From the NCBI GenBank assembly GCA_030690875.1, contig JAUYFP010000047.1, positions 1-14,986 on the forward strand: DNA of 14,986 bases, written 5' to 3'. The translations under genes and the position numbers were made by a program. The stretch is from a bacterium (GTDB lineage: Bacteria; Patescibacteriota; Patescibacteriia; UBA1558; GWA2-36-10). The notes under the pieces are model-generated. The model made no database searches, was not told where the DNA came from, and saw only the letters and a program-made list of their open reading frames with translations. Shown piece by piece: positions 10,319 through 14,986 of the stretch. Every line of letters starts with the position of its first letter. Position 1 is the first letter of the stretch.

Positions 10319-11365
10319 TTATTTAAAATAATTTTTGACAGCGTCTTCAAACTGGTCAATAAATATCTGTTTAAAATAAGCAATATTATTTATTTCATAA
10401 AATAATATAACAGCTTTTTTGTACTCCTCGACATCTACAATTCTATAAGAAAGCGGTATTGAGTTATGTGACAACAAAATAGCATTGGAAATCATCCGAG
10501 CAGTTCTTTTGTTTCCATCTTCAAAAATTTGGATATAAGAAATAAGAATCAATACCAAAAAAGCTTTTTCAAAAATAGATTCTTTTTTATTAATTAGACT
10601 TACCATCTCCTGCGCGACTTCTTTTATTTGATGGCTATTATTCAGGGGTTTATATTTCGTGCCGGTGATTCCAACCGCTCCATTTCTGATATTTTTTGAA
10701 ATTGCGAGTTTTTTAGTCAAAACAGAATGTATATATTCAATGTCAGAATAATTTAATTTTCTAAATCTCTCTCTGTCTTGAATAGCTTCATTAAAAGCGT
10801 CTTTGTGGTTAAGAATCATCTGAGTTTCTTCTTTAGTCTTGCCTTTTCCCACAACATTGTTCTTAATCAAGGCTTCGGTGCCTAAGAGCGAATAAGTATT
10901 CCCCTCTATCACTGAAGATTTCCAAGAAAATTCAATCATTATTCTTTCAAATTCTTTATTAATAAGAGTTTGACTATCATATTTTGAGAAATTTATAATA
11001 AAATCTCTTTGTAAATTTTCTAGTTTCTGCTTTTCCTCATCTGTAAAAATATTATTTTTTAGAATAGTAAATATTTCAAAGTTAAAACTTTCTTTTACAT
11101 CTCTTTTTAAATAAGGAATTTCAAAATATTCTTTAACATCAACTTCTTCTAAAATCTTACAAACATCGGACAAGGAATAGACCGTGCTTTTTCCTGTACC
11201 TTCCTTAGAGATTAAAAATTTTTCTTCCAATTCTTTTAAGTCTCTTTGTAAGGTTTTTCGGTCAATATCTATGCTTAAAAAAGACAAAATGTCAGATACT
11301 GACACTTCCGCCTTTTTTTTCACAAAAGAAATGATTTTATTTTGTCTTGCTTGTTTTTTATTCAT
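10319..11365 (-). CDS. Winged-helix/Fic-domain protein with altered Fic motif
   Basis: Predicted regulator-type Fic protein, 348 residues. An N-terminal winged helix-turn-helix (about 6-66; VSVSDILSFL, then DRKTLQRDLKELEEKFLI) resembles DeoR-like repressors. The Fic domain follows at about 100-345. An inhibitory-helix motif SSVIEGN (S150, E154, G155, N156) is present on the N-terminal side, as in class II Fic proteins. The core motif is QIFEDGNKR at 279-287: the rest of HPFxDGNKR is kept, but the catalytic His is Gln (CAA) and Pro is Ile. AMP transfer is therefore doubtful; nucleotide binding may persist. Fic genes often sit in type I restriction loci, which fits the HsdR-like relics on both sides. 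The promoter and its operators suggest autoregulation. The ATG lies at the predicted transcription start. Confidence 0.88.
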   Translation of the reverse strand: MNKKQARQNKIISFVKKKAEVSVSDILSFLSIDIDRKTLQRDLKELEEKFLISKEGTGKSTVYSLSDVCKILEEVDVKEYFEIPYLKRDVKESFNFEIFTILKNNIFTDEEKQKLENLQRDFIINFSKYDSQTLINKEFERIMIEFSWKSSVIEGNTYSLLGTEALIKNNVVGKGKTKEETQMILNHKDAFNEAIQDRERFRKLNYSDIEYIHSVLTKKLAISKNIRNGAVGITGTKYKPLNNSHQIKEVAQEMVSLINKKESIFEKAFLVLILISYIQIFEDGNKRTARMISNAILLSHNSIPLSYRIVDVEEYKKAVILFYEINNIAYFKQIFIDQFEDAVKNYFK

Positions 11366-11823: not shown

Positions 11824-14502
11824 CTATTTATTTTTAAAAGTTTCAGCTAATTGTTTAAAGCTTTGCGGTTTATATTTATCCCACTCCTCTTGTCTTACAT
11901 ATAGCATTTTATAGACATTCTTTTTCTGCCTAGTACTTGCGTCTTCACACCATTGCTCTAATCTTTTAATCTTTTCAATATCGTCCAGATCTTCTCTGCC
12001 CTTTGTCTCTATAATATAAATAGTTTTTTTATCAGTTTTTACAAAAAAGTCTGGATAATAACTAGATATTGCGCCACTAGCATTCTTGTAATCAATCTTA
12101 AAATGAATTTCATAATAATTTTTGGCAAAAGACAATACATCCTCAGCGCCCTCTAAGAAATCAGCAAACTCCAATTCAAAATCACTATCACCGACAATCT
12201 TATTAAATACACTCTTCTTCGACAATAAATACTTTTTGTCGGTAACAACAAAAGGCCTAGCACTACTTACTTTAATAAAATTTTTAACCTCTGTGTCGCC
12301 AACATCTTGAACTGTTAAACTGTTTATTTCTTTCTTAAATGTCTCTACGATTGTTTTAACTGCTTCCAATTCAGATAAATTTCTCAAAATATTTGGGTCG
12401 TTAAGATCAACTTTTTGCGTGAATAAATCCGCAGTAATAAATTCCTTCACCTTACCAAATAATATATCGTAACAACCAAAAAGACGTAATTCTTTCATTA
12501 TTCTTTGCGCGAAAAAACCAATAACACTTTGATAGTTAGGTTCAATAGAACTATTTAAAATAGTTGTGTGGTGAGTTTTATCGTCAATTACTTCTTTAAA
12601 AACAATCTCCTTTTGTTCTTGTTCAGAAAATTGCTTGACTGAAATCCTCTCATATTTAAATTTAGAAACACCTAATAAATTAAGGTTTTTATATTCTCTT
12701 TGAATTCTTGGAGTCAAAACAGGTAGCTCAATATCTAAATTATCAATATCTTTCTTTACATTTTGATTATCAACCTCAATGACAGTTGGCGTAATCGGTG
12801 TGCCAGATCGATCCATTTTTCTCTTTTCAAGATCAACACCTTCCGCCTTGATAGATTCAACAAATTCCATAAAGGATGGGGTGCCAATAACACTGACATA
12901 TTCATCAACATCTTGACCAAAATACATCCGACGCAAACCACGACCCAATGTCTGTTCTGGTAATATCTTTGAATCAGCTCCATATGGACGCAAACCAACG
13001 ATAGTTGTTACATTCTTTACGTCCCAACCCTCTTTAAGCATAAGAACTGACACGATGACTTTGTAAGGACTTTCTAGACTGTCTATTTCATTAGCTTTTT
13101 TTCGAAGCTCTTGCAACTCCTTTTCTTTTTTACCACTGACAGACTCTGATATTTCACCACTTTTATTAGTGTGAATTGTTAAGACTGCGCCTTTTAACTG
13201 CGGATAGCTTTTTTCTAAAAATTCAGCCACATCATCACAATTCTTAGTATCATCGGTCATTATAAAAAGAATTGATTTTTTACCAGTTGGTTCTAGCTCT
13301 TTGTATGTTTTTTCCCATTCCTCTACACCAAGCCTAATAAAGTCTTCGTACTTTTCAGCAAATAATGAACTTTGTTTTTCTTGTAACTTAGCTCTACTAG
13401 CTTGATCTGGTAAAACAGGATTTTTTACAACACCCTGACGTATAGCCTCAACCAAAGGATAATCTGAAACTGTCTGTACAAAAATTTCACCACGATTATT
13501 CTTTGGTGTAGCCGTAACATCAATTTGCAAAGTTAATTTCTTACCCTTCTGTAATAATCTATTATGTATATCTTCAATAGATTTAAACCAAGCCATTTTT
13601 GGATCATGAATGTGATGCGCTTCATCATTTATAATTATTAATTCATCAACATCACGCACTATCTCACCTAGATCCACTTTAGAATCATTAGTCTTACCAA
13701 CTGCTTTTGAACCTAAAAAATAATCCGAAGTATCCTCATCTTCAAAGCTACCTTCACCTACTTTACCCTCGTATACTCTATGAATATTTGTTAAAAATAT
13801 ATTTCCAGTTTTTGAAATTGTACCAACCTCATCTTGTAAATGAAGTTTAATTTGAAAATCATCTTGCCAATTTTGTCCACAATATCCATTATCTGGTAAA
13901 ATTGGGTCTTCGTAAAATATTTTTAAACCTTCAAAATCTATCTTGATTCTATCCAAAACAATTATATTTGGTGTAATAAGTAAAAAATTTTTAGATAATC
14001 CAGAATTTTCTTCATATAATTTATGAAAATATGACCATGTAAGAAGCAAACTCATTACTTTTGTCTTTCCACTACCAGTTGCCATTTTGATAACAAAACG
14101 AAGCCAATCTTCATCAAACATATTGGGACTAACTCGGCCTAATTTATCAAATTTTATAAGGTCATATTTATTTTTAACTTTTTCAACATCATATAACCAT
14201 ATAATAGTTTCAACCGCCTCTCTCTGAGCATAATAATACTGAAAAGCAACACTACTACCATCTTTAGTATATATTGCGTGCGATTCTTTAAACCACCAAT
14301 TCAATAAAGCTTTTGAAGTTTCACTAGCTCCTTTATATTCATCTTTACGCCATTCAGCTATCCTCTCTCTTAATTCAGGCACAAAGGGAGGTAAAAGCTT
14401 TTCAAAGCCTTCTTTTCTCAAATCTTCTTCGGCTGGAAACCACCTGATTGAGGGATCAAGTATTTGAAATTTATCTTTGGGAAAATTTTTGTGTAGTGCC
14501 AT
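11824..14502 (-). CDS. DEAD/DEAH helicase-nuclease, type III Res / BPTD_3080-like restriction enzyme
   Basis: ATP-dependent DNA translocase fused to a nuclease, 892 residues, acting on foreign DNA. The N-terminal region (about 30-100; FVPELRERIAEWR, then YYAQREAVETIIWL) resembles BPTD_3080-family restriction proteins. Superfamily 2 motifs follow in order: ATGSGKT at 141-147 (K146), DEAH at 293-296, TATP at 330-333, a second RecA-like domain with KEGWDVKN near 490-497, and QTLGRGLRR at 517-525. A PD-(D/E)xK nuclease site lies at the C-terminus: D818 in YYPDFF, then E832 and K834 in IIETKG. Everything needed for cleavage is visible. No methyltransferase (Mod) is in the window. Weak AGGT before the ATG may be a ribosome site. 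The 68-residue ORF follows directly. A DUF3800 gene lies upstream. Confidence 0.9.
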   Translation of the reverse strand: MALHKNFPKDKFQILDPSIRWFPAEEDLRKEGFEKLLPPFVPELRERIAEWRKDEYKGASETSKALLNWWFKESHAIYTKDGSSVAFQYYYAQREAVETIIWLYDVEKVKNKYDLIKFDKLGRVSPNMFDEDWLRFVIKMATGSGKTKVMSLLLTWSYFHKLYEENSGLSKNFLLITPNIIVLDRIKIDFEGLKIFYEDPILPDNGYCGQNWQDDFQIKLHLQDEVGTISKTGNIFLTNIHRVYEGKVGEGSFEDEDTSDYFLGSKAVGKTNDSKVDLGEIVRDVDELIIINDEAHHIHDPKMAWFKSIEDIHNRLLQKGKKLTLQIDVTATPKNNRGEIFVQTVSDYPLVEAIRQGVVKNPVLPDQASRAKLQEKQSSLFAEKYEDFIRLGVEEWEKTYKELEPTGKKSILFIMTDDTKNCDDVAEFLEKSYPQLKGAVLTIHTNKSGEISESVSGKKEKELQELRKKANEIDSLESPYKVIVSVLMLKEGWDVKNVTTIVGLRPYGADSKILPEQTLGRGLRRMYFGQDVDEYVSVIGTPSFMEFVESIKAEGVDLEKRKMDRSGTPITPTVIEVDNQNVKKDIDNLDIELPVLTPRIQREYKNLNLLGVSKFKYERISVKQFSEQEQKEIVFKEVIDDKTHHTTILNSSIEPNYQSVIGFFAQRIMKELRLFGCYDILFGKVKEFITADLFTQKVDLNDPNILRNLSELEAVKTIVETFKKEINSLTVQDVGDTEVKNFIKVSSARPFVVTDKKYLLSKKSVFNKIVGDSDFELEFADFLEGAEDVLSFAKNYYEIHFKIDYKNASGAISSYYPDFFVKTDKKTIYIIETKGREDLDDIEKIKRLEQWCEDASTRQKKNVYKMLYVRQEEWDKYKPQSFKQLAETFKNK

Positions 14503-14549
14503 GTTTTTACCTAATATTAGCTTAATATTTATATACTATCAGCAAACTA

Positions 14550-14582
14550 TTGCTTTTTTTACCAAAATATTGTATCATGATA
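14550..14582 (+). promoter_or_regulatory. Putative promoter of the structured RNA, with palindrome
   Basis: TTGCTT (14550-14555) and TATCAT (14573-14578) are 17 bp apart, pointing to a start near 14585. The -10 box lies in a perfect 10-bp palindrome TATCATGATA (14573-14582). A 7-bp inverted repeat ACTATCA (14536-14542) / TGATAGT (14578-14584) brackets the promoter. Regulator binding is possible. The -35 matches only half the consensus. Confidence 0.4.
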
Positions 14583-14584
14583 GT

Positions 14585-14657
14585 GGAATTGACTCCGGAC
14601 CAAACTGTGGCGTTTATCGCCGCGTTCCCGCAAGGGATAGGTTCGGAGTTTTCTATT
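14585..14657 (+). ncRNA. Three-way-junction structured RNA next to a DUF3800 gene
   Basis: The + strand folds into a compact junction. P1 is 10 bp (14592-14601 with 14640-14649, one G-U). P2 is 6 bp (14607-14612 with 14618-14623) with loop TTTAT. P3 is 4 bp (14626-14629 with 14634-14637), closed by the GNRA tetraloop GCAA. TTTTCTATTT follows as a terminator-like tail. The GNRA loop and the T-tract are on this strand only, which supports + transcription. The element is much GC-richer than its surroundings. Structured RNA classes associated with DUF3800 genes have been reported from comparative genomics (DUF3800-I and following motifs), and this lies beside such a gene. I cannot say which class, if any, it matches. 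The minus-strand reading would be a leader of the helicase-nuclease gene. Confidence 0.6.
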
Positions 14658-14667
14658 TAGTAAAATT

Positions 14668-14986
14668 TTAATCCTTTGGCCAAACCTGAACGAATATCTC
14701 TCTGTGAGATATAATTTCACGATATTTATCAGATTTTTTCCTTTTATTTTGAACGGAACGATTGATAGAGCTGGCCACATAATCTGCTAATTGCAATAAA
14801 TTGTTACTTTCTGATCTTTGCATTTTTACTTGTTTAATAACCCTATCTTGCCTATTAATTCTATTCCGTAAATATTTTCCCAACTGTCTTTTAAAATCTA
14901 AATTCCCACTCTCATCTATAACAACTGTAGCATTTATTAATTTTTCTTTAGCATTTTCAAAAACCAAACCGCAAGTATATTTATAG
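14668..14986 (-). CDS. DUF3800 domain protein, 3' part (start beyond the window)
   Basis: The frame is open to the right edge (YKYTCGLVFENAKEKL and on), so this is the C-terminal part of about 105 residues of a longer gene. The TTG at 14967 is only an internal codon. Family features are VVIDESGNLDFK (a second acidic strand of the presumed nuclease-like fold), a KYLRNRIN helix, SNNLLQLADYVASSINRS with the conserved QLAD, and the terminal YREIISHREIF. DUF3800 proteins are small, widely scattered, often phage- or defence-associated, and predicted to be RNase H-like nucleases; their biochemistry is not settled. The gene ends 8-10 bp from the convergent structured RNA and lies upstream of the restriction enzyme in the same direction. 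Confidence 0.8.
   Translation of the reverse strand, partial: YKYTCGLVFENAKEKLINATVVIDESGNLDFKRQLGKYLRNRINRQDRVIKQVKMQRSESNNLLQLADYVASSINRSVQNKRKKSDKYREIISHREIFVQVWPKD

Follow-up and report, generated by a model that had tools for sequence, protein, structure and literature searches.

A DUF3800-IX RNA convergent with a DUF3800 gene in a Patescibacteriota contig, a possible RNA-checked nuclease module

The DUF3800-IX RNA and its convergent gene

The window, as the whole analysed stretch of 14,986 nucleotides is called here (contig JAUYFP010000047.1, assembly GCA_030690875.1), has, within its last 450 bases, a structured RNA on the (+) strand that is preceded by a predicted promoter and followed by the 3' part of a DUF3800 gene in convergent orientation (Table 1). 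Comparison with Rfam revealed that the RNA matches family RF02968 (DUF3800-IX) over the entire model (positions 1–67 of 67) with 54 bits, the gathering cut-off being 36.8 (E-value 5.6 × 10−11, 507 bases searched), and that RF02968 is the sole Rfam family matched in the window at gathering cut-offs. The segment 14586–14654 has a predicted fold of −34.2 kcal/mol (z −5.6), which was equalled in none of 200 shuffles. An earlier note, made from the sequence alone, had described a three-way-junction RNA with a GNRA loop at this place and pointed to a covariance-model search of Rfam; both are borne out by the whole-model match, the fold and the GCAA loop. It had given stems of 10, 6 and 4 bp, which is correct for the shortest (P3), while P1 and P2 are each one pair longer. 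Most cautiously put, the RNA of the window belongs to a known, already catalogued family and is present with its DUF3800 partner; it is the same as RF02968 over the whole model and showing no difference from it. The founding paper of the DUF3800-IX RNA is reportedly Weinberg 2017. In the open-access literature searched, no function was found described for DUF3800-associated RNAs; for the DUF3800-IX RNA, PMC7657543 reports that two helices are stacked by a covarying pair.

Table 1. Features of the RNA–DUF3800 locus (positions in the window) and loci of relatives with an upstream motif.
Feature	Position	Strand	Basis
Predicted RNA promoter	14550..14578	+	TTGCTT (14550-14555), 17 nt, TATCAT (14573-14578); by eye, 8/12, weak
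Probable transcript start region, GGAATT	14585..14590	+	Upstream sequences aligned; common to same RNA subtype
DUF3800-IX RNA	14591..14654	+	RF02968 54 bits, fold, covariation in relatives
P1, 11 bp	14591-14601/14640-14650	+	Predicted fold
P2, 7 bp	14606-14612/14618-14624	+	Predicted fold
P3, 4 bp, GCAA loop	14626-14629/14634-14637	+	Predicted fold
DUF3800 gene, C-terminal part (105 aa)	14668..14985	-	Open reading frame list; PF12686; clade profile A2 122 bits; runs off contig end
TTATCCACA upstream of RNA			L085, L079, L101, L106, L090, L086, L035, L078, L102, L104, L095, L096, L108

The flanking signals of the RNA are less distinct than the fold. The promoter-like region proposed in the earlier note is placed as in the relatives described below, with 12 nt between the end of the −10 element and the RNA, which equals their median; it is weak when taken alone and is not among the promoters listed by a consensus scan of this region. 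A scan for intrinsic terminators found none at the RNA, where a terminator-like tail had been suspected.

The open reading frame (ORF) of the gene matches Pfam PF12686 with 32.6 bits (curated cut-off 21) and is convergent with the RNA, as had been noticed; its stop codon lies 13 nt from the end of the RNA model, farther than the 8–10 bp first given. The missing half of the gene was not found in the assembly of the same organism (718 kb, 119 contigs, about 69% complete). A DUF3800 piece on another contig of this assembly (G000:C81; G numbers denote genomes and L numbers loci throughout) was rejected as the missing half, its frame stopping 99 nt before the contig end and its sequence resembling another type. 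This piece (L003:1459-1794) is a second, short DUF3800 ORF of the genome, with 20.4 bits to PF12686 (cut-off 21). No second RF02968 match was found in the genome.

The clade of DUF3800 proteins to which the window gene belongs keeps the acid set of RNase H-type enzymes: D6, D10, E57 and D173 occur in 79/79 aligned rows and D128 in 78/79. The best fold match of the clade is RNase HII, at an identity of 7–16% to rows of RNase H2, HII and HIII, and the protein looks like an active RNase HII-like nuclease; it differs from RNase HII by the additional invariant E57 and by the partner RNA gene. A sequence search of solved structures gave one meaningless match (E-value 0.68). DUF3800 is given an RNase H fold and located in some CRISPR loci in passages of PMC10910872 and PMC12669027, and is also named in a passage of PMC11701678.

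The pair in relatives

When genomes of 84,980 species were scanned with a profile made from ten clade proteins, 250 related loci were obtained, of which the best 80, the most query-like, were kept; they come from candidate-phylum bacteria and from records titled Nitrospira, Planctomycetes, Alpha-, Gamma- and Deltaproteobacteria, and Actinobacteria. A viral scan added seven loci. Using an RNA model built from 20 RNAs, an RNA was found beside the DUF3800 gene in all 73 newly searched genome-scan loci (the others of the 80 were already in the set) and in six of six searched viral-scan loci, two of which repeat genome-scan loci; every one was convergent. The model search of the relatives gave 102 matches in 100 sources at E-values of up to 1, and the weakest RNAs found through the protein were those of L137 (E-value 0.012, just over the Rfam cut-off) and L129 (E-value 0.0012, below it). 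The median distance between the stop codon and the end of the RNA model is 6 nt (range −34 to 61; 90 loci, L077 and L117 having given no ORF). The RNA adjoins this DUF3800 clade in all loci so searched, and the pair travels as one small unit. Matches near other DUF3800 genes, whose absence would have spoken against the earlier note, were thus found at many loci. Searches of sequenced phages gave no match for either of two clade proteins; in sequenced plasmids one of them had no match and the other found only distant DUF3800s (up to 27.3% identity, 14 records). In the family of the Sphingobium genome G421, 3 of 397 genomes carry the RNA, which is too few to use.

The DUF3800-IX RNA is structured and conserved. 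Covarying base pairs, looked for in homologues as the earlier note had proposed, were plentiful: 18 of the 20 pairs change on both sides, and the covariation score is 0.590 versus 0.046–0.139 when the structure is slid along the alignment (98 distinct rows), a score that is favoured because the rows were aligned by fitting them to a model for which 20 of them were the source. Fixed junction letters accompany these compensatory pairs. Paired positions hold 240 G-U and 40 A-C cells; therefore, the strand of the model is that of the RNA. A promoter scoring at least 9/12 precedes the RNA in 65/88 units (18/264 control windows), with a median of 12 nt from the end of the −10 element to the RNA, and in 59/77 units a T run is present in the 42 nt after the RNA (119/308 control windows).

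Upstream of some of these RNAs, an exact copy of TTATCCACA, which we take to be a DnaA box, was seen within 100 nt in 13/90 units versus 5/744 other ORF starts (p 6.5 × 10−10), although the 13 RNAs look related and hence are not independent (Table 1); in 10 of them it lies 52–67 nt upstream. This suggests that DnaA may control the RNA. A complementarity between a CGAAC stretch of the RNA and the tRNA T loop was dropped, as the window RNA has CAAAC.

A second family, DUF3800-V (RF02964), was found in 13 of 379 genomes of the phylum. It belongs with another branch of DUF3800, and a convergent DUF3800-like ORF is present at 11 of the 13 loci (by motif and by eye; two were also found in the clade protein search); thus, the tail-to-tail layout is common to two different RNA families. 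The partner ORFs are short in L206 (123 aa) and L197 (138 aa), and no DUF3800-like ORF was seen at L195 and L204. Two of the 13 DUF3800-V units (L194 and L199) carry TTATCCACA. Downstream of an other-branch DUF3800 (L161:2170-2430), a structured segment is tandemly repeated about 157 bases apart; Rfam gave no match to it at the gathering cut-off.

In the same 379 genomes, RF02968 was detected at E-values of 0.001 or below in 17 (16 over the cut-off), with 21 matches. The two matches of G002 were merged, as about 75 nt are common to the contig ends (by eye), which leaves 20 RNA loci. A convergent DUF3800 gene is present at 14 of them (the window and G140 are cut by contig ends), and six RNAs stand without one. 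In G127, the RNA is followed by an 11-codon gene end (by eye) and then by a Fic gene; in G078, DUF3800 is gone and another ORF lies beside the RNA; in G002, the RNA lies at a contig edge with Fic downstream; in G064 and G018, a second RNA precedes a complete unit; the sixth is in G019. The idea that RNAs form the direct-repeat ends of an element was rejected. Only the G018 and G064 loci (L024, L027) show two RNAs, and these second RNAs thus look like leftovers of another unit. Seen from the protein, 27 DUF3800s were found at 1e-10, 15 of them clade members with at least 120 bits, and RF02968 accompanies 14 of these 15 (13 over the cut-off, plus G156, where DUF3800 is degenerate with two stops and the RNA is below the cut-off). 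The sole clade gene lacking it, in G047, has a convergent hairpin RNA candidate (−48.0 kcal/mol over 153 nt, no shuffle control). This hairpin (L158, about 2125–2230, reverse complement) carries a T run, has no Rfam match at the gathering cut-off and is possibly a new DUF3800-associated RNA.

The gene-less RNAs keep 15–19 of the 20 base pairs (mean of the others 17.1, n = 94), and four of the six have a promoter of at least 9/12. The RNA of G078 is identical to its G064 counterpart at 69/69 positions, while the promoters agree at 41/63. Such lopsided pairing would be the expected look of an antidote that outlives its toxin, as far as these small numbers can suggest.

Two further observations concern the surroundings of RNAs. 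The gene-less RNA of G019 (L034:5871-9321) lies between two ORFs that read, by eye, like halves of one type IIG restriction enzyme. Fic genes recur near the RNAs (L029, L038 and the window, 10319-11365), twice directly downstream on the strand of the RNA, where DUF3800 is missing.

Unit ends, insertion sites and neighbouring genes

Unit pairs were counted when a single DNA match covered 500 nt or more of the gene together with the RNA, the ends being those of the local alignment. In 257 of 260 pairs, the match extends no farther than 66 bases ahead of the RNA and 41 bases past the start codon; this does not apply to the near-copies L091/L092, L126/L134 (where the match goes on for 540 bases past the start) and L084/L093 (with a separate piece far outside). 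The RNA and the gene behave as a single, sharply bounded block. In G342, the unit occupies an intergenic gap of about 27–75 bp (by eye) that is empty in G078, G064 and G390; this sole clean empty site has no significant direct repeat.

Direct repeats with a score of at least 14, searched in 200 bases on each side, flank 16/77 units versus 26/2678 segments of the same length from the same loci (odds ratio 27, p 2.6 × 10−15, a count in which related rows are not independent), whereas 0.88 units would be expected from the same-locus windows. The repeats are 14–77 bp long and 76–100% identical. Five of the 16 have extra copies nearby (L087, L111, L105, L084, L112), and at L065 other windows in the locus match equally well; dispersed repeats therefore play a part, and 10 of the 16 units are free of both. 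The repeat of L093 adjoins a tRNA-like sequence (by eye). Between recA and recX of G153, the repeat of the unit is the 5' end of recX; at the corresponding place in the relative G175, which has no unit, a different small ORF comes with a recX-like copy of its own. The DUF3800 unit is therefore not necessarily the maker of the repeats, which may instead reflect how single genes enter these chromosomes. The recA–recX gap appears as an insertion site for different small genes (L031:6480-7860; L193, G175:C35 about 41500–42100). Around five gene-less RNAs examined, no direct repeat rose clearly above background, the best (L024) being equalled by 12/268 control windows. Mostly, there is one copy of the unit per genome.

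The earlier note had placed the pair in a defence island. This holds loosely for the window, where a type III restriction subunit (ResIII, 11824-14502) and the Fic gene are neighbours; no modification subunit was noticed in the ORF list of the window, for which no dedicated search was made. PADLOC gave only weak candidate matches, to PDC-M04A (1e-10) and PDC-S51 (1.1e-6), and the name PDC-M04 was not found in the open-access literature searched. The surroundings of the relatives are mixed. Their 141 nearest neighbours include five phage integrases, three N6 methyltransferases and many ordinary chromosomal genes (among the best 25 of 128 Pfam families); for 103 genes lying farther away, the best 25 of 65 families include no integrases. 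In the near set, 158 PADLOC models had one or more matching proteins, versus 25 models in the far set, a gap that arises largely from a few methyltransferases each matching many models. Some alphaproteobacterial units lie, by eye, in phage-like regions or beside integrases.

Possible function of the pair

The function that fits best, and which is put forward tentatively, is an RNA-checked nuclease module resembling a toxin–antitoxin pair, because the lopsided pairing, the own promoter, the active-looking nuclease, the block-like ends and the patchy spread are together best met by it; the RNA-neutralised toxin of the earlier note is retained in this conditional form. The module would consist of the RNase HII-like DUF3800 nuclease and a three-way-junction RNA of about 70–100 nt with a promoter of its own, made on the opposite strand. 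The RNA would bind DUF3800 and hold the nuclease off, as in protein–RNA toxin–antitoxin systems. Once the RNA was lost, through a shut-off of transcription or loss of the module, the freed nuclease might cut RNA or RNA–DNA hybrids and growth would stop, perhaps limiting phage. Beyond the pairing itself, we infer every step of this mechanism.

Several points weigh against this proposal. The asymmetry rests on a small sample (p about 0.02 by hand, rising to about 0.1 when G047 is scored as having no RNA), and among the gene-less RNAs that of G002 lies at a contig edge, the promoters of G078 (8/12) and G002 (6/12) are weak, and a relic beside a recently deleted gene could appear intact. No general defence-gene neighbourhood emerged around the units of the relatives among the Pfam and PADLOC matches listed. 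Known type III antitoxins consist of tandem repeats that precede the toxin gene and share its strand, unlike the single, convergent RNA of the window and its relatives. With type III systems such as ToxIN, the proposed module would share the idea of a nuclease checked by RNA and would differ in its single convergent structured RNA and RNase HII fold.

It is doubtful that the RNA is instead an essential cofactor, needed by DUF3800 to recognise and cut nucleic acid as in TnpB or Argonaute-like enzymes with an RNase H fold. TnpB with its guide RNA and IS110 with its bridge RNA likewise combine, in compact form, an RNase H-type fold with a neighbouring structured RNA; here, however, no guide-like stretch was seen and the protein is much smaller. 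The predicted start of the transcript precedes P1 by about 5 nt, and its end seems to lie near P1 or within a short terminator ahead of the gene; no variable unpaired stretch that could serve as a guide was seen in it, and RNAs persist without the gene. The RNA-guided enzyme also envisaged in the earlier note is disfavoured, because no obvious space for a guide is left in the transcript, as far as its predicted ends can tell. That the RNA acts on the DUF3800 mRNA, as an antisense regulator or bidirectional terminator in the manner of convergent type I antitoxins, appears quite improbable: the tail-to-tail arrangement with its short median gap of 6 nt and the frequent T runs would suit it, but the compensatory pairs and fixed junction letters are not needed for antisense action, and in some genomes the RNA was kept after the gene was lost.

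The sharp ends, the empty site in the genus of G342 and the excess of direct repeats would agree with a minimal mobile element of promoter, RNA and gene, in which the RNA or a junction-folded DNA would act with the RNase H-fold protein in insertion and leave direct repeats of the target. Transposases of fixed stagger give repeats of constant length, unlike the variable ones found here. This explanation is nevertheless unlikely, given the nearby copies in 5/16 loci, the equal windows of L065, the tRNA-like sequence at L093, the different ORF with its recX-like copy in G175, the lack of a significant repeat at the clean G342 site and the mostly single copies. Quite improbable is the stronger form, in which DUF3800 would use the adjacent RNA or its DNA form to insert a block of about 750–860 bp at new chromosomal sites with long, variable target duplications, the RNA families being versions of one machine; if true, promoter, RNA and DUF3800 would be among the smallest self-moving units known.

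Several DUF3800-associated RNA families have been catalogued, and the present data make the question of their function experimentally separable. For the DUF3800-IX pair, they predict either an RNA-checked toxin, the reading tentatively preferred here, or an RNA-dependent nuclease. The flanking repeats would hint at a novel mode of DNA movement if they proved to be the work of the unit.
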